NCBI RefSeq assembly: GCF_000365025.1
Contig: NZ_KB823011.1
Span: 826,621 to 890,620, forward strand
DNA: 64,000 nucleotides
Source: Robiginitomaculum antarcticum DSM 21748
GTDB lineage: Bacteria > Pseudomonadota > Alphaproteobacteria > Caulobacterales > Maricaulaceae
Direction of reading: 5' to 3'
Positions 51,238 through 61,173 of this stretch are shown here, one piece after another (within the stretch, counting starts at the first letter, position 1; each line of letters opens with the position of its first letter). The notes below the pieces were generated by a model. The model saw nothing but the letters and a program-made list of their open reading frames with translations, did no database searches and had not been told where the DNA came from. The position numbers and the translations under genes were made by a program.

Positions 51238-51311
51238 GGCACCATGGCGGAGTGGTTACGCAGCGGATTGCAAATCCGTCCACCCCGGTTCGATTCCGGG
51301 TGGTGCCTCCA
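51238..51311 (+). tRNA. tRNA-Cys (GCA)
   Basis: A 74-base cloverleaf. Acceptor GGCACCA pairs with TGGTGCC, the discriminator is U73 as expected for cysteine, and CCA is encoded. The anticodon arm GGATT-GCA-AATCC gives GCA. A partial copy of its 3' half follows 70 bases downstream. Confidence 0.97.
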
Positions 51312-51381
51312 TAAGTTTCTATAAAACTTAATTCAGTAACTAAGGTGCAAACTGCGGCATTAACAGCCTCTTAGGAGCGGG

Positions 51382-51427
51382 GGATTGCAAATCCGTCCAC
51401 CCCGGTTCAATTCCGGGTGGTGCCTCC
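51382..51427 (+). repeat. Duplicated 3' part of tRNA-Cys (att-like remnant)
   Basis: 46 bases repeat positions 51265-51310 of tRNA-Cys with a single mismatch (G to A in the T loop). The copy covers the anticodon arm through the acceptor 3' strand but lacks the 5' acceptor and D arm and the final CCA, so it cannot be a tRNA. A direct repeat of a tRNA 3' half is the usual trace of site-specific integration. No integrase is present between or beside the copies. Confidence 0.85.
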
Positions 51428-51479
51428 TTAAAATCCCCAGATATTCCATTGCGCTCAACTGTTACAAAATATTAATTAC

Positions 51480-51520
51480 GACATTTGTCTTTTTTATGTT
51501 GACGTTACGACATCTGTCGT
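51480..51520. promoter_or_regulatory. Paired BlaI-type operators
   Basis: Two dyads lie just upstream of the BlaI gene: GACATTTGTC at 51480-51489 and the perfect palindrome ACGACA-TC-TGTCGT at 51507-51520. Both share TTACGACAT-TGTC and are 29 bases apart. They resemble the xACAnnTGTx sites bound by BlaI/MecI/CopY repressors. The second ends 13 bases before the ATG, so binding would block the promoter. A TTGACG hexamer at 51499-51504 may be the -35. Confidence 0.75.
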
Positions 51521-51533
51521 TTAAGCGAATGAT

Positions 51534-51920
51534 ATGAAAAAGAATAGAAAACCTTCCGCAGCCGAATCCGCCATATTAAATGTCTTATGGGCCAAGCAGC
51601 CCTGTAGCGTGAAAGAGATACATGATATCCTCAGCGCCACCAAAGATGTGGGTTACACGACGACCTTAAAACAGGTACAGCGGCTTCATAGCAAAGGTAT
51701 GGTTGCGCGCAAGCCGGGCGAAGGCAAATCCTTCCTCTACAGCGCCGCCGTCAAAGAGGACGTAACCAAATCAGATTTGTTTGATCAATTCGTGGAAACC
51801 GCATTTAGCAATTCCGTATCCGAACTTGTGATGCATGCCTTAGGGAATGAAAAAACATCAGAAGCCGAGATCAATAAAATCAGAGCTTTTATCGCAAAAT
51901 TGGATGAGCCCCAGACCTAA
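51534..51920 (+). CDS. BlaI/MecI-family transcriptional repressor
   Basis: 128 residues. The N-terminal winged helix carries the family pattern (SAAESAILNVLWAKQPCSVKEIHDIL, then TTTLKQVQRLHSKGMVARKPGEGKSFLYSA). The C-terminal half is the dimerisation/cleavage region. In BlaR1-BlaI systems this protein is inactivated by proteolysis triggered by the membrane partner. The next gene, 14 bases downstream, encodes an M56 peptidase, so that relation is likely kept. It probably represses its own three-gene unit through the operators upstream. Confidence 0.92.
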   Translation: MKKNRKPSAAESAILNVLWAKQPCSVKEIHDILSATKDVGYTTTLKQVQRLHSKGMVARKPGEGKSFLYSAAVKEDVTKSDLFDQFVETAFSNSVSELVMHALGNEKTSEAEINKIRAFIAKLDEPQT

Positions 51921-51934
51921 GCCGGGAGAGCCTT

Positions 51935-54523
51935 ATGTCACTATATACACATGAAATTTTAAATAGCCTGGGATGGGCTTTACTGCATAGCTTATGGCAA
52001 GGCGGCATAGCCTGCGCGGCGGTTATAGTAATGCGCGCTGTGTGGCGCGGTGACAATCCATCGGCCCGGTATTTAGCGCAATGCGCAATATTGCTAAGCT
52101 GTTTCGCCGCTTTTATTGTGACGTTTTGGATTTACCTTCAAAATCCCGTCACGCAGATGGCTCAAGATATCGTCGTCGCGTCTTCAGGCTATACACTCAC
52201 AATCTCCTCAGCGCCTGATGAGGCGGCAGGTTTAATTAACGGCGCACAAAGTCTGGCCGCGGCTACTTTAAATTTGAATGCTGTATTGCCAATTTTAGGT
52301 CTTCTCTGGTGTTTAGGGTTTGTATTTATGGCTCTGCGCTATGCCGGGGGGGTATATCTTGTCCGCACTTTGCGCCGCAAAGGACTGACTCGGCCAAACG
52401 CGCAATGGTGCGCCGCCTTTGCACGTCTTGCCATTCAGTCGCGCATATCGCGAGACGTGAAATTATTTATCTCTGACCGCGTCACAGGACCGATTACGCT
52501 GGGCGTATTAAAACCGATCGTTCTTGTTCCGGTCGGATTTCTGACGGCCCTGCCCCAAGATCAAGTCGAAGCCATTCTGCTTCATGAACTGGCCCATATC
52601 CGCCGCTATGATTATGCCTTCAATCTTGTTCAAAATGCCATAAAAGCCGTCTTTTTCTACCATCCTGCCATTCACTATATCTCGCGCTGTATTGATACGG
52701 ATCGCGAACAGGCCTGTGATGATTTGGCGGTCAAAAAATCCGCAGGCCCGAACGCTTTGATACGCGCATTAGCGGCATTGCCGGACGCCCTGCACAGCCA
52801 GAAACTGAGCCTGGCTGCGACAGGACCGCGTCATACCCCCATCCTTGACCGCATGACCCGATTGGTTGACCCAAAACTCAAAAACAGTAATCCCAGCGCG
52901 AGTGGTATATTTGCAATGGCATTAGTGCTTACCGGCGCAGCTTATTTTAGCGCAACCTCGCAGGCCAATGCTGCGTCTACGCCCAAAGATGCAGATGTAT
53001 CAGAAAGCCAGCTCGCCGGTGACGTCCCGCAAGCAGATTCTAACTCCCTGAAAATCGAAGTGTCGCCAATGGTCCCGCTGCAAGTCGACGTGCCATCCAT
53101 GGCTCCTATAAAAGTCCAAGTCGCGCCGATTGCGGTGCCCACCCTGCCTGCAGCTCCGGTTTTTCCGGTCTTCTCAGAGGGCGGCCCGATTGAGAATGGT
53201 GAATTTGCCCGCCGTATTGACAAAATCAGCAGCACTTGGGGTGATTTCCGTGCGGAGATGGCCCAATTTTACATCGACTTTAGCCGCTTTGAAACCGAAA
53301 ATTCATCTTGGGACGGACGGGTTGAAAAGCTTCGAAGTCAAGCCGAACGTTTGGACGAGCAAGTCAGCGAAGATTTTGAAACACACATCGAAGCCGCCAA
53401 TGATCACTATCACGATTATATAGACGCCGAAAATGAGGCCAGAGAAGCCGCGTATGAGGCGAGAGAAGACGCACGTGAGATGTACAATGATACTGTTCGC
53501 GATGAGATCGAAGCCGCAGCGGAGCGCCGCGCAGACGCCAAGCGCGTGTCTATAGAAGCTCGTCATAGGGTCGAAGCCGCGCAAGAGCGCCGCACAGAAG
53601 CGCGCGCCGAAGCCAGAGCACAAGCCATAAGTGCCAGAGCTGAAGCTTCCGCCAGTAGAGCAGAGGCGAAAGCCGAAGCGTATAAAGCGAATAAGACACA
53701 TACAAAATTTGATGATCTTCGCGGTGAACTAACCCAACAGCTCAAAGCCGACGGTTATTATAATGGAGGGTTGAAAAAGAATTCCATAGTGAAAAATAAT
53801 ACTATCTGGTCAATCAACGGCACAGCTCTAACTCCAGACCAAGCCAAACCCTATAAAAAGATTATTGGAAAGATCGTTTCAGATTTGGACAAATTCATCT
53901 TTGCCGATATTAGTAAAGACGGCCTTCATATCTCGTCTCACTCGCGAAATGGTGATGAGCGTCAAACGCGCGATATTACAATTGGTAAATTTGAACATAC
54001 AGACTTTACATCGACCAAAGCGTCTGTTGCTACGCCGGTTCCGCCAATCTCGCCTGCGTCAATATCGCTTAAAACTCACCACGCTCACTCCAGTGAAGAC
54101 CTTCCATATTACACAAAATCCGGCATCAAAATAACGCCTCAATTTCTTGCGCCCCTAACAAGCACCAGCGTCATGGCCAGTCATGGCGAATATATCAAAG
54201 ACAAAGACGAGTATCATTCCGGTACCGATTATAATGCCGCGATTGGGACGCCCGTCAGAGCGAGCCTGGGCGGCACTGTAATATTTGCCAATAAATACGG
54301 CAATTGGGGCGGGTTGATTAAAATCAAACATATTGGCGGACTTGAAACCCGATACGCCAGCCTTGGCGCGTTCAAAGTCAAAGTCGGTGACAAAGTTAAA
54401 GCCGGACAAATTATAGGAACAGTCGGTACAATCAATAAAGTTTGGGCGCCCCACCTTCATTTTGAAATCCGACATGACGGACACAATTATGACCCCGTTT
54501 ATGTTCTGTCCAAGACCCGGTAA
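51935..54523 (+). CDS. Fused M56 (BlaR1-like) and M23 (LytM) membrane metallopeptidase
   Basis: 862 residues. N-terminal membrane helices near 12-37, 46-68 and 117-140 are followed by the M56 zinc motif HELAHIRRYD (217-226) and Glu258 in TDREQACDD, then another helix near 322-340. An exported part follows: a Pro/Val-rich linker (about 375-412), a long charged, Ala/Glu/Arg-rich coiled coil (about 425-590), and a C-terminal M23 domain with intact HxxxD (His761-Asp765) and HxH (840-842). BlaR1 instead ends in a penicillin-sensing domain. It is co-transcribed with blaI and a TonB receptor. Probably an envelope-stress or cell-wall sensor-protease. Confidence 0.88.
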   Translation: MSLYTHEILNSLGWALLHSLWQGGIACAAVIVMRAVWRGDNPSARYLAQCAILLSCFAAFIVTFWIYLQNPVTQMAQDIVVASSGYTLTISSAPDEAAGLINGAQSLAAATLNLNAVLPILGLLWCLGFVFMALRYAGGVYLVRTLRRKGLTRPNAQWCAAFARLAIQSRISRDVKLFISDRVTGPITLGVLKPIVLVPVGFLTALPQDQVEAILLHELAHIRRYDYAFNLVQNAIKAVFFYHPAIHYISRCIDTDREQACDDLAVKKSAGPNALIRALAALPDALHSQKLSLAATGPRHTPILDRMTRLVDPKLKNSNPSASGIFAMALVLTGAAYFSATSQANAASTPKDADVSESQLAGDVPQADSNSLKIEVSPMVPLQVDVPSMAPIKVQVAPIAVPTLPAAPVFPVFSEGGPIENGEFARRIDKISSTWGDFRAEMAQFYIDFSRFETENSSWDGRVEKLRSQAERLDEQVSEDFETHIEAANDHYHDYIDAENEAREAAYEAREDAREMYNDTVRDEIEAAAERRADAKRVSIEARHRVEAAQERRTEARAEARAQAISARAEASASRAEAKAEAYKANKTHTKFDDLRGELTQQLKADGYYNGGLKKNSIVKNNTIWSINGTALTPDQAKPYKKIIGKIVSDLDKFIFADISKDGLHISSHSRNGDERQTRDITIGKFEHTDFTSTKASVATPVPPISPASISLKTHHAHSSEDLPYYTKSGIKITPQFLAPLTSTSVMASHGEYIKDKDEYHSGTDYNAAIGTPVRASLGGTVIFANKYGNWGGLIKIKHIGGLETRYASLGAFKVKVGDKVKAGQIIGTVGTINKVWAPHLHFEIRHDGHNYDPVYVLSKTR

Positions 54524-54554
54524 ATAACCACCCCCTCAAACCCAGAGACTTATT

Positions 54555-56603
54555 ATGTTAAAAATCAGAAAACCGCTTCTCGCGGTCGCGTCATCGCTCA
54601 CCCTCATGACAGCTGCGCTACCGGCTTTTGCGCAGACAGCAAACCAGCAGAGCTTTGATCAGGAGTATTTCAAGCAATATGCACCGCGCACTGCGCTGGA
54701 TATGATCGCTCAGGTTCCGGGGTTCTCCCTCGAGGGGGCATCAGATCGGCGCGGCTTGGGACAAGGCGGGGCCAATGTTCTGATTAACGGTGAGCGTTTG
54801 ACCGGCAAAACAGATGTCGGCAGCCAGCTAAACCGTATTCCGGCTACAAATGTTGTGCGGGTTGAGATCAAAGACGGCGCATCTTTGAGCATTCCTGGTC
54901 TGTCAGGACAGGTGGCCAATATCGTCACATCCAAAGGCAAGGGCCTATCCGGAACATGGAGCTGGGAGAGCACTCTACGTGACCGTAATGAACCGAATTT
55001 CAGTCATATTCATTTCACAGTATCCGGAGAGAAAGGCCCCTTATCATACACAGCAGAGCTACGCAGCGAGGCGTTCCGCCAAGCCGGATATGGCCGTGAA
55101 GACTTAATCGACGCCAGTGGAACAGTGTTCGAGACTCGCGATGAAATTGGATATGATATCGGGCAAACTCCCGGCGTGACGCTTGATCTAGCGTGGAAGC
55201 CCAAGGAGGAACATGTCGGTAATCTCAATCTTGAATACAACCATTCTAATTATGGCGGCAGCGAAACCTCACAACGTACTGCCGGGACGAGCAGAGGTAA
55301 TGATGTCTTTACGCTCGCGCGGTTTTCCGAAGATGAGTGGAACGCTAAAATCGGTGCAGATTACGAATTTCCGTTTTTAAACGGTAAACTCAAAACCATC
55401 GCTTATAACCGCTTTGAGCATTCCCCAACGCAGTCTCAATTTGAGGTCTTTACCAGCCCGGATAACCGCGCGGACGGGTCAATCTTTAACCGCGTAGCTG
55501 ATGAGAGCGAAAGTATTTTACGCACGGAATATTCATGGATACCCAGTGAGGGACGCGATTGGCAAATAAGTTTGGAAGGGGCGCTCAATACACTCGACAT
55601 CGATGCGGATTTGCAGGTTCTGGACGGCGGCGCATACCGCCCGGAACCGCTGAAAGGCGCGTCATCCAAAGTCGAAGAAATTCGAACTGAGGCGAGCATT
55701 ACCCATAGCCGTAAAATGTCGGAGAAGTGGAACTTGCAGGCCTCCCTTGGCGCCGAATATTCAGAAATATCGCAGTCTAATGGCGGCCTCACCCGTGATT
55801 TCTTCCGGCCTAAAGGGTTTATTGCCTCGACATATAAACCCTCAGACTCTTTCTCAATCAGGACGAAAGTCGAGCGCGAAGTCGGACAGCTTAACTTCTT
55901 TGATTTTATATCTTCGGTGGACATCAGCGATGATTTCAACACAACGGGCAACATCAACCTTGTTCCGGCGCAAAGCTGGAATCTGGAAACAGAATTTGAT
56001 AAAGACTTTGGTGACGGCAATTCCCTTAAAATCCGGGTTTACGGCGAGCTTATAACCGATCTTGTTGACCGTATTCCAATCGGTAAAAATGGTGATGCCG
56101 TCGGCAATATTGACGAGGCTATGCTTTACGGTCTCGACAGCACATTAACGCTTAAAGGCGAAAAATGGGGCTATAAAGGCACAGAGCTGACCTTGAAGGC
56201 AAATGTCCAGGACTCCGATGTTGACGATCCCCTGACAGGAGGCTCCCGGCGATTGAATAATGCCAGTATCTACAATACCCAATTGAGCTTTCGCCACGAT
56301 ATCGAAAACACGGACTATGCTTATGGTTTTGGTCTGTACCGCTCCGAAGGCAGTCCGGACTTTCGTCTCAGGACAATCAGTGAGGCTAAATTTAACGCGC
56401 CGGATAGCTCAATTTTTGTCGAGCATAAAGATATTATGGGCCTGAAATTACGCCTGACCGCCTTCAATCTTTTCGATTTCACTCAAGAGGCGCAGCGCCA
56501 GATTTTCACGGATCGCCGCGATATCGGCACACTTGATTTTACTGAATTCCGACGCCGCAAATATGGCCGCACATTAAGTCTGGAGCTGAGCGGCACCTAT
56601 TAA
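54555..56603 (+). CDS. TonB-dependent receptor
   Basis: 682 residues. A signal peptide ends in PAFA-Q. The plug domain spans about residues 35-130 (RTALDMIAQVPGFSLEG, GANVLINGERLTGK, ATNVVRVEIKDGAS), followed by a beta-barrel to the C-terminal FRRRKYGRTLSLELSGTY. No N-terminal signalling (secretin/TonB short) domain is seen. The ligand is unknown. It starts 31 bases after the M56/M23 gene with no terminator between, so it belongs to the BlaI-controlled unit, an uncommon partner for a BlaR1-type protease. Confidence 0.88.
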   Translation: MLKIRKPLLAVASSLTLMTAALPAFAQTANQQSFDQEYFKQYAPRTALDMIAQVPGFSLEGASDRRGLGQGGANVLINGERLTGKTDVGSQLNRIPATNVVRVEIKDGASLSIPGLSGQVANIVTSKGKGLSGTWSWESTLRDRNEPNFSHIHFTVSGEKGPLSYTAELRSEAFRQAGYGREDLIDASGTVFETRDEIGYDIGQTPGVTLDLAWKPKEEHVGNLNLEYNHSNYGGSETSQRTAGTSRGNDVFTLARFSEDEWNAKIGADYEFPFLNGKLKTIAYNRFEHSPTQSQFEVFTSPDNRADGSIFNRVADESESILRTEYSWIPSEGRDWQISLEGALNTLDIDADLQVLDGGAYRPEPLKGASSKVEEIRTEASITHSRKMSEKWNLQASLGAEYSEISQSNGGLTRDFFRPKGFIASTYKPSDSFSIRTKVEREVGQLNFFDFISSVDISDDFNTTGNINLVPAQSWNLETEFDKDFGDGNSLKIRVYGELITDLVDRIPIGKNGDAVGNIDEAMLYGLDSTLTLKGEKWGYKGTELTLKANVQDSDVDDPLTGGSRRLNNASIYNTQLSFRHDIENTDYAYGFGLYRSEGSPDFRLRTISEAKFNAPDSSIFVEHKDIMGLKLRLTAFNLFDFTQEAQRQIFTDRRDIGTLDFTEFRRRKYGRTLSLELSGTY

Positions 56604-57985: not shown

Positions 57986-59332
57986 ATGCTTATCCGCTAC
58001 ATACCATTTCATCACTACCGGCTACGCGCCGCTATATTTTCGCTAACCTTGAGCAGCATAAGCGCGGTATGCCTGACGCCCTCAGCTTTGGCCCAAGACG
58101 ACATTTATGCGCCGGAGCTTTTAGTTTCGCAAGGGCGCTATAACGCGCCCTTACCGCAAGCTGAGGCGCGACCTATGCGGTTTTCTGAAGTCGAAGCGAA
58201 TCTTCGCCAACATCCCTCATTAGATGCATTAAACCTGAGCGCAGACGCCTATCGACATCGGGCTGAGGCCGCCCTCGGGCTACCCGACCCCGTTATTTCA
58301 CTGCAAATCAATAATGTACCGTTCATTAATCCCTCATTTTCAGAGTATTTGCCTTCCAATAAAGCCATAGGCGTTCGTCAAGCTTTCCCGAGCCGCTCCG
58401 GGCGTAAAGCAAATTCGTTATTATCACTGAGAAACGCTGCTCAACACGAGCTGAAACGCGAGCAGCAATTTGCACGGCTTCGCGGCGATCTGTTAATGTT
58501 ACTGATTGAAGAGCGCAGCATTGACGGTCAGAGAGATTACGCTCTTGCGCGTCAGACAAAATATGACGAACTGGCTGATATTATAGATATCGAGATTAAC
58601 GCCGGACGGCCCATTGTCTTCCGTTTGGCGCAAGTCGATGTTGAGCGCACAGAAGTGTCGCGAACCCTAGCCCGGCTTGACGGGCAAGAGTCAGAAATCG
58701 AGGCCGCGTTCGTTAATCTCCTTGGCTTCATTCCCCAGACAGATTTACCCGACCTGTCCAAGACGGTTTGGACAGGACAGGCTCTGCGGTTTTACGGCGT
58801 GCGGGTCGCCGACGCGCAAGTGGCCATAGCAGATGCAGAAGTGCAAAGAGCCAAAGCGGATTATAAACCGGATTGGGGCGCCAATCTGACCTATCAGCAA
58901 CGTGAGTCCAGTCAGGGGCTACCGCGGTCTAATTTTGATGGAGATGATTGGGTTTCAGGCGGGATCAGCTTTACAATTCCATTATGGGCCCGAGACCGTC
59001 AGGATCCAAATTTACGCGCGGCGAAGATTGACAAAAATGCAAGTCTCGCGCGCCGCATGGCCATCGCCCGGCGATTTCAGTCTGAATGGTCCCGCTATGA
59101 CGCCAAGCGGGAAACTGCGGTTCAGAACATATCGATTCTCAAGCAAAAAATAAGTGCTATTGAGGCTCAAACCGCCTCGGAATTGATTTCTTATGAAGCC
59201 GGAATGGGCGACTACTCCCCGATCCTCGACGGCGAAATCGCGGTTCTCATGCTGAGAGCAGAGATTGTTAAGGAAGAAGCGACGCGCGACCAAATGGTTG
59301 TGGCGATGAATAGCCTTTTGGTGACACCATGA
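57986..59332 (+). CDS. CusC/CzcC-like outer membrane efflux channel
   Basis: 448 residues, TolC fold. A signal peptide ends at ALA-Q (about residue 36). Two helical repeats are seen, including LRQHPSLDALNLSADAYRHRAEAALGLPDP at the start and GEIAVLMLRAEI near the end. The GLPDPVIS segment is typical of heavy-metal RND channels. It forms the outer duct of the tripartite pump with the two following genes. Its stop overlaps the adaptor gene by 4 bases (ATGA). Confidence 0.88.
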   Translation: MLIRYIPFHHYRLRAAIFSLTLSSISAVCLTPSALAQDDIYAPELLVSQGRYNAPLPQAEARPMRFSEVEANLRQHPSLDALNLSADAYRHRAEAALGLPDPVISLQINNVPFINPSFSEYLPSNKAIGVRQAFPSRSGRKANSLLSLRNAAQHELKREQQFARLRGDLLMLLIEERSIDGQRDYALARQTKYDELADIIDIEINAGRPIVFRLAQVDVERTEVSRTLARLDGQESEIEAAFVNLLGFIPQTDLPDLSKTVWTGQALRFYGVRVADAQVAIADAEVQRAKADYKPDWGANLTYQQRESSQGLPRSNFDGDDWVSGGISFTIPLWARDRQDPNLRAAKIDKNASLARRMAIARRFQSEWSRYDAKRETAVQNISILKQKISAIEAQTASELISYEAGMGDYSPILDGEIAVLMLRAEIVKEEATRDQMVVAMNSLLVTP

Positions 59333-61173
59333 TAAATTTCAAACATATTTTCATATCAGCGTCGGCTTTGACCTTAATCGCTTGCCAAGGATCGCATGAC
59401 GAAACCGGATCTGATCACGGCGAGGCGCCATCAGGGCAGCGTTCGGATCCTTCGGCCAACATAGCGTCAAATGAGACTGTGAAATATACGTGCCCGATGC
59501 ATCCGCATTATATTTCCGATGACCCAAATGGCAGCTGTCCTATCTGCGGCATGGACTTGGTTCCCGTTGCGGATAGCGGGCCGTCAACATCTTCAGGCAA
59601 AGGCAAAATTCTATATTACAAAAACCCTATGGGTCTTCCTGATAAATCCTCTGTGCCGAAAAAAGACAGCATGGGCATGGATTATATACCGGTTTATGAA
59701 AATGAAGGCCAAGGCAGCGGCGTGGCAGTCTCGCCGGAAATGATACAGACTATGGGCATTCGCACCGTGACCGTTAATACAGAAGATGTAAGCCGCGACA
59801 TACGGGCTTACGGTACGGTTGAGCCCAATACACGGCTTGAATCCATGTCAGCCTCACGGCTTGAAGGCTGGATCGACGGGCTAACCGTAAGAGCCGAAGG
59901 CGATATTGTACGCCGGGGGCAGCGTTTATACCGCATCTATACGCCTGAGCTTATCGCGGCGCAAAAGGATTACCTCGCCTCTTTGCAGATTGGCAATGCA
60001 CGCCGGATTGCCTCTGTGCGCCAGCGGCTCAAATCCAAAGGTATGCAAGAGGGTCTCATTGACCGCCTAACAACCTCTCGTGAGGTTATAGAGCGCATGC
60101 CGGTTTATGCAGAAAGCGCAGGGGTCGTGACCGAGCTGATGGTTCGCGACGGTGATTATCTCAAACCCGGCGATCCCGTTATGAAGCTGCAATCCTACAC
60201 TAAAGTGTGGGTCATTGCATCAGTGCCTGAATCTGAATTACCGCAAATACAAATAGGTGAAGCGGCATCTTTAAAATTTGAGAGTGCGCCTGACGCGCCA
60301 AAAACAGGTACTGTAGACTATATCTATCCCACTATTGATTCAAATACGCGCACAGCCAAGGTCCGGATCAGTGTCGAAAATGCCTCGGGCTCCCTGCGTC
60401 CCGGAGCTTATGTGGATATTGTTTTCGAAACTCAACAAACCGACGCTCCTTCATCCCAATTGGTCGTCCCAAGTCAGGCCATATTGAGAGATTCACGCGG
60501 AGCCCATGTCATCATGGCTCTTGGTGACGGTCGTTTTGAAAGCCGACATATCACGATTGGATCCAGCATACGTGGTCGCACGGAAATTTTGTCCGGCCTG
60601 ACGGCGGGCGAACGCATTGTCTCCAGCGGTCAATTCATGCTGGACTCCGAGTCCAGTCTTCGCGAAGGACTATCTAAATTAAGCGCGCCTGCTGCAAATT
60701 TTGACGCCGCCACCCCCCTTTCGCAATTGCCTATAGACGGGCAAACATTGAGCGAGATTGACCATATCGTCGATACAGCGCTTTATTTTCATGAAGCGAT
60801 TATAGATGGTTATGCCATTGACCCTTACTTCCTCGACCCGACCCTTGCCTTAATCGATACGCTCAAAGACAGGTTTTCAGGTTCAAGGCTGTCTCCAATT
60901 CTAGACGCGTCCGCGACCGTTATATCCAACGCAAAGAATACGGCCTCAACCGAGCCTCTTGCGTCACACCTCTCCAGGTTAATGACGGCGCTGGATCCAT
61001 GGCTACTCTCAGGCGCGCCGGCGCATTATAAATCTAAAGGCCTGATCCTTTATAAAGATAGGAATACCGGGCGCCTGTGGCTGCAAGAGGCAGGCCTACC
61101 CGCCAATCCTTACTCTTCTTCCGATGCAGCTGTTGTGGCTTGGCCGGATCCCATGGCAGGCACAACCCGATGA
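59329..61173 (+). CDS. cusB: CusB-like RND periplasmic adaptor with heavy-metal binding domain
   Basis: 614 residues. Lipobox LIAC with Cys19 anchors it in the inner membrane. Residues 52-80 form a YTCPMHPHY...CPICGMDL heavy-metal binding module. Residues about 95-124 hold YYKNPMGLP...KKDSMGMDYIPVY, the Met-rich N-terminal segment of CusB that binds Cu+/Ag+. The barrel-sandwich (GDIVRRGQRLY, AGVVTELMVRDGDYLKPGDPV) and beta-barrel domains follow. An extra C-terminal part of about 140 residues, helical and not usual for E. coli CusB, follows the standard fold. It overlaps cusA by 4 bases. Confidence 0.92.
   Translation: MINFKHIFISASALTLIACQGSHDETGSDHGEAPSGQRSDPSANIASNETVKYTCPMHPHYISDDPNGSCPICGMDLVPVADSGPSTSSGKGKILYYKNPMGLPDKSSVPKKDSMGMDYIPVYENEGQGSGVAVSPEMIQTMGIRTVTVNTEDVSRDIRAYGTVEPNTRLESMSASRLEGWIDGLTVRAEGDIVRRGQRLYRIYTPELIAAQKDYLASLQIGNARRIASVRQRLKSKGMQEGLIDRLTTSREVIERMPVYAESAGVVTELMVRDGDYLKPGDPVMKLQSYTKVWVIASVPESELPQIQIGEAASLKFESAPDAPKTGTVDYIYPTIDSNTRTAKVRISVENASGSLRPGAYVDIVFETQQTDAPSSQLVVPSQAILRDSRGAHVIMALGDGRFESRHITIGSSIRGRTEILSGLTAGERIVSSGQFMLDSESSLREGLSKLSAPAANFDAATPLSQLPIDGQTLSEIDHIVDTALYFHEAIIDGYAIDPYFLDPTLALIDTLKDRFSGSRLSPILDASATVISNAKNTASTEPLASHLSRLMTALDPWLLSGAPAHYKSKGLILYKDRNTGRLWLQEAGLPANPYSSSDAAVVAWPDPMAGTTR

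Follow-up and report, generated by a model that had tools for sequence, protein, structure and literature searches.

A conserved operon of a BlaI-type repressor, an M56 protease and a TonB-dependent receptor in Robiginitomaculum antarcticum, with an accessory and probably non-hydrolytic M23 domain

We analyzed a window of 64,000 nucleotides from Robiginitomaculum antarcticum DSM 21748 (contig NZ_KB823011.1, positions 826,621 to 890,620), in which two BlaI-type operators are followed by three genes on the plus strand: a blaI repressor gene, a gene encoding a fusion of an M56 protease with an M23 domain and a gene encoding a TonB-dependent receptor, or TBDR (Table 1). The gaps between these genes are short (14 bp between blaI and the M56 gene and 31 bp between the M56 and TBDR genes) and neither of them presented a terminator-like hairpin on the plus strand. 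The original prediction, made from the sequence alone, had described operators and genes as one plus-strand run with short gaps, and the coordinates bear this out.

Table 1. Positions of the operon's features in the window.
Feature	Position	Strand	Evidence and description
Operator 1, ACGACATTTGTCTT	51478..51491		BlaI-type; one mismatch to palindrome
Operator 2, ACGACATCTGTCGT	51507..51520		BlaI-type; perfect palindrome, 13 bp 5' of the blaI start codon
blaI, BlaI/MecI/CopY-family repressor, 128 aa	51534..51920	+	PF03965, 90.5 bits
M56-M23 fusion gene, 862 aa	51935..54523	+	PF05569, 108.8 bits; PF01551, 98 bits
M56 part, residues 1-345	51935..52969	+	PF05569, hydropathy, invariant residues, BlaR1 structure match
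Long charged Ala-rich helical region, residues 421-606	53195..53752	+	Model helices 421-455 and 460-606
Small alpha/beta domain, residues 607-685	53753..53989	+	Alignment, C-terminal sequences, model
M23/LytM domain, residues 741-862	54155..54520	+	PF01551, alignments, fold matches
TBDR gene, 682 aa	54555..56603	+	PF07715 plug; model; fold matches

The repressor is a winged-helix protein whose PF03965 score lies far above the cut-off (90.5 and 22.6 bits, respectively) and whose best PDB matches are structures of MecI and BlaI. Its own operon is preceded by a candidate palindromic operator with a ACANNTGT-type core. At least one ACGACANNTGTCGT site with no more than one mismatch was found upstream of every visible blaI orthologue (30/30), and two sites at a spacing of 28-31 bp were present at 19 of the 30 orthologous loci. 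One genus presented shifted half-sites at both operators (e.g., ACGAAACCTGTCGT and ACGACGGCTGTCGT). The operon copy of the exact palindrome is the only one in the 2.77 Mb genome of the window. When sites with up to one mismatch were counted, the genome contained eight, relative to five in the reversed control, and the one-mismatch sites outside the operon were mostly located within reading frames. A wider BlaI regulon was rejected on these grounds. The uniqueness of the palindrome, together with a number of other, mostly intragenic sites close to the control, suggests that BlaI probably acts locally, on its own operon.

The N-terminal part of the fusion presents the hallmarks of a BlaR1-type peptidase. 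The Peptidase_M56 match spans residues 22-268 and carries the HExxH motif (H217-E218-L-A-H221), D226 and the ExxxD motif (E258xxxD262), which correspond to the active site of BlaR1 (PMC9834060) and are invariant or nearly so across 29 orthologues. Hydropathy predicts membrane helices at about residues 15-33, 50-68, 116-134 and 322-340, and BlaR1 was among the structure matches of the M56 part. Hydropathy and the model fit the arrangement of BlaR1, which by analogy would place the C-terminus in the periplasm. The blaR1_generic model matched residues 106-264 only, with 73 bits relative to a cut-off of 400, and scans with Pfam and NCBIfam detected no penicillin-binding, transpeptidase or beta-lactamase domain in the fusion. 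The absence of BlaR1's penicillin-binding sensor had been noted from the sequence and is confirmed by these scans.

After the M56 part, the protein continues with a helix that is charged and rich in Ala, then with a small alpha/beta domain (residues ~607-685) that is also found in orthologues lacking M23, and ends with the M23 domain itself. The helical region had been described as a coiled coil of about 165 residues. A helix is indeed predicted across residues 460-606 and it is charged and Ala-rich, but a coiled coil is not secured because the heptad signals are weak. A straight helix of 147 residues, at 1.5 Å per residue, would extend over about 22 nm, which is on the order of the width of the periplasm.

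We surveyed 137 genomes of the window's family using the M56 domain alone as a query (E ≤ 1e-40 for orthologues). Orthologues were detected in 31 genomes belonging to 5 of the 19 genera, and the surroundings of all 31 were retrieved. At every locus where the contig extends far enough, blaI is located directly upstream (30/30) and a TBDR of the same family directly downstream (30/30). A search based on the receptor alignment recovered the same operon in named members of the Robiginitomaculaceae, including Hellea balneolensis, Litorimonas cladophorae and Algimonas. The M56 proteins of the operon group together in the M56 tree as a single supported set (29 rows; support 97/98). BlaI, the M56 protein and the TBDR thus constitute a truly conserved unit. 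No record in the plasmid collection covered most of the M56-M23 fusion. The window genome also contains a second BlaI-M56 pair (122 and 507 aa; G000:C4, L165 4125-6013) that is devoid of an M23 domain, and no receptor of the operon's TBDR family was found within the 10 kb retrieved around it.

The M23 domain follows a different distribution: it is present in only 5 of the 30 orthologues with a visible C-terminus. Because the 25 others possess the same neighbors without it, the system cannot be built around M23, which is an accessory domain of the conserved unit. At least two changes are needed to account for its presence on the M56 tree, which may reflect a single origin followed by loss. Fusions of M56 and M23 next to BlaI were also observed in another family of the order (L042 7254-10054, L043 7706-10311 and L044 7324-10058). 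In these proteins, M23 comes straight after M56 and ahead of the helix, and the loci adjoin genes that appear to encode an RND-type pump and its HlyD-type adaptor instead of a receptor (these two genes were called from their N-terminal sequences rather than by a family scan). According to the original prediction, fusions lacking a conserved BlaI or receptor neighbor would count against it; within the window's family both neighbors are kept, but in the other family only BlaI is kept and the RND pump takes the place of the receptor. The fusion and the receptor pairing are therefore separable in both directions, since receptor loci without M23 and RND-linked fusions both exist. When the whole class was searched for the fusion of the other family, it was found in 0 of 385 genomes; the known carriers are apparently missing from this sample, such that this number indicates rarity at most.

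We further examined the residues of the M23 domain. The Peptidase_M23 match covers residues 760-854, and the three zinc ligands (H761, D765 and H842) are present; His761/Asp765 and His840/His842 are found exactly where they had been predicted. In LytM, H260 activates the water molecule and H291 stabilizes the transition state, and both are essential (PMC5519744). An alignment to solved M23 peptidases indicates that His840 is the equivalent of H291 and that the position of H260, the general base, is occupied by Ser809, so the window protein possesses only one of the two catalytic histidines. Across an alignment of eight fusions, this serine is shared by both species of the window's genus (YAHL to YASL). 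The loop of the active site ahead of HLH is also altered in the window (GTINKVWA in place of GSTGxSTG). In contrast, all five M23 residues are retained in three orthologues (H. balneolensis and two MAGs). The general-base histidine is kept in 3/5 M23 fusions of the window's family and in 2/3 of those of the other family, where the remaining protein presents a glutamine, and the domain is thus not dead in most fusions. A comparison of the genus's two species indicates purifying selection on M23 (dN ~0.31 and dS ~1.66, a rough estimate since dS is near saturation). The fold matches of the domain include DipM, EnvC and LytM, and the LytM domain of SpoIIQ is also among the closest. The serine and the modified loop make the term hydrolase doubtful for the window's genus; M23 has been kept there, but probably not for cutting.

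The third gene encodes a protein that is modeled with confidence as a TBDR (pLDDT 85.7): the PF07715 match, the model and the fold matches overall are consistent with a plug and a predicted barrel of 22 strands. The plug match starts at residue 27, and the domain scan detected no STN signaling domain in the receptor. The best fold matches are a mixture of haem, siderophore and other receptors, with siderophore and haem receptors being the most common, and the fold search identified no cargo. The gene neighborhood is more informative. A POT oligopeptide:H+ symporter gene, identified by TIGR00924 well above the cut-off, is divergent to the operon at 16 of the 29 visible loci, which represent all the visible loci of two genera. 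Among 17 genomes with a POT match, 13 present POT beside a paralogous receptor, including the window genome and some genomes without the BlaI-M56 operon. In another family of the order, POT adjoins two tandem receptors of the operon's TBDR family, which are convergent with POT and have a PmbA/TldD-like gene upstream (L188 5705-11904 and L191 5517-11821). A PmbA/TldD gene (PF19289) was also observed near POT at another locus (L038). Because receptors of this family adjoin POT symporters across two families, the cargo is probably peptidic, and peptide import is a likely role of the operon's receptor. In the window genome, the second receptor of the family is divergent from POT without BlaI-M56 (G000:C2, L166 2495-6492), and no BlaI operator was found in the promoter of this orphan pair. 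The BlaI regulon would therefore miss part of the presumed peptide uptake, a point that weighs against the explanation we favor below.

The explanation that best fits our results is a BlaI-M56 derepression operon that is autoregulated and has a TBDR, probably for peptides, as its output, with M23 as a probable non-hydrolytic sensor; we assign a probability of about 0.6 to this reading. BlaI would bind the two operators and repress all three genes of the operon, its own included. The M56 protein would be anchored in the inner membrane, its HExxH site oriented toward the cytoplasm, and its periplasmic helix and small domain would represent the ancestral sensor. Upon a periplasmic signal, M56 would cleave or otherwise inactivate BlaI, and the receptor would be produced. 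In the window's genus, the M23 domain would form the tip of the sensor and bind wall or muropeptide-like peptides, or the peptide cargo, without cutting them.

Several of these steps can be explained differently. The original prediction viewed the fusion as a cell-wall hydrolase tethered to the M56 protease, and an active endopeptidase would directly couple wall cutting to the control of the repressor. This is quite improbable: the zinc ligands, His840, the complete set of residues in the three orthologues and purifying selection are all compatible with activity, but the general base is replaced in the window and its congener, where the loop ahead of HLH is also changed, and 25 of the 30 orthologues do without the domain. 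The loss of the general base combined with the retention of the zinc ligands indicates that M23 is most likely a binder and not a cutter. What it would bind is more open to debate. It might be a protein-interaction module resembling the LytM domains found in EnvC and NlpD, whose role would be to bring in an amidase or the receptor/TonB machinery and not to bind wall peptides. EnvC, DipM and SpoIIQ are indeed among the closest folds and the hydrolytic residue is gone; however, the zinc ligands are still in place and the M23-bearing loci have no conserved partner gene beyond those of the M23-less loci, and we consider this role unlikely. Wall sensing by the fusion protein, as originally suggested, is possible. 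In a more specific version that we only put forward tentatively, a LytM domain that holds zinc but does not hydrolyze, carried on a long periplasmic helix, would bind peptidoglycan or released muropeptides, leading M56 to lift the BlaI repression of a (muro)peptide importer. If true, this would parallel the reuse of a beta-lactamase-like fold by BlaR1, for wall peptides rather than antibiotics.

Alternatively, the receptor might carry a non-peptide cargo such as a metallophore or a peptide-metal complex, and its proximity to POT might only reflect a shared history. The haem and siderophore receptors among its best fold matches would agree with such a cargo, as would the observation that several other lineages carry receptors of the same family with no adjacent POT or BlaI-M56. 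Nevertheless, POT is found next to the receptor in several genera and again in a second family of the order, in divergent as well as convergent orientation, which makes a non-peptide cargo somewhat unlikely. The target of M56 must also be considered. The cleavage site of staphylococcal BlaI is N101-F102 (PMC9834060), and these residues are replaced by H101-A102 in all the operon BlaI proteins (alignments to the MecI and BlaI structures and to 30 operon relatives), which speaks against our preferred explanation. M56 could instead process another envelope protein, for instance the receptor, with BlaI answering a cytoplasmic signal. This appears very doubtful, since the active site of M56 is expected to lie on the cytoplasmic side, judging from its homology to BlaR1 (PMC9834060), and since BlaI and M56 invariably occur together. 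In addition, the patch LV(M/L)HALG around the cleavage position is retained in every operon BlaI examined, and this patch may constitute the recognition site of M56.

The derepression operon that we favor shares many properties with the BlaI-BlaR1 and MecI-MecR1 systems of staphylococci: a BlaI-family repressor adjoining an M56 protease with HExxH and ExxxD motifs, paired palindromic operators ahead of the operon and a soluble C-terminal sensor region. However, the penicillin-binding sensor is replaced by a long helix and a small domain, in some cases together with M23, the output gene encodes a TonB receptor rather than a beta-lactamase or PBP2a, and the residues of the cleavage site differ. 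The best-understood BlaI-M56 switches are those of beta-lactam resistance; little is known of the signals recognized by the many M56 proteins that lack a penicillin sensor. The loci of the other family (L042-L044) are similar in that BlaI accompanies an M56-M23 fusion downstream of paired sites with the ACANNTGT core, but they differ by the position of M23 and by the pump and adaptor genes that replace the receptor. As in FecA/FecR/FecI, a TonB receptor gene would be controlled by an inner-membrane protein sensing the periplasm; the window's receptor lacks the STN domain, however, and a repressor and an M56 protease replace the anti-sigma and sigma factors. Finally, degenerate LytM proteins (EnvC, NlpD and SpoIIQ) also combine an M23 fold with the loss of catalytic residues and a non-cutting use, but the window's M23 domain keeps its zinc ligands and is fused to a repressor-type M56 protease.

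We found no description of this operon or of M56-M23 fusions in the literature covered, which includes a minority of subscription journals. All of the component families are known. We encountered in that literature neither the fixed BlaI-M56-receptor unit nor its connection with peptide transport. The operon offers an output gene that stays the same throughout part of a bacterial family and a receptor family with an independent functional clue, its association with POT. Since versions with and without M23 exist among Hellea balneolensis, Litorimonas cladophorae and Algimonas arctica, the sensor and the output are directly testable.

Two other features were observed around the operon. Downstream, the region 57986-61173 encodes an outer membrane efflux protein and a CusB-type adaptor with a heavy-metal-binding domain, and this metal efflux cluster is apparently unrelated to the operon. 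Upstream, the tRNA-Cys gene (51238-51311) has its 3' half repeated at a distance of 117 bp downstream over 55 nt with 93% identity (51260-51314 and 51377-51431), which places a truncated copy immediately ahead of the operon. Only one copy of this 3' half is present in the congener (G002), and the partial repeat could have arisen by local duplication or been left behind by an integrated element.
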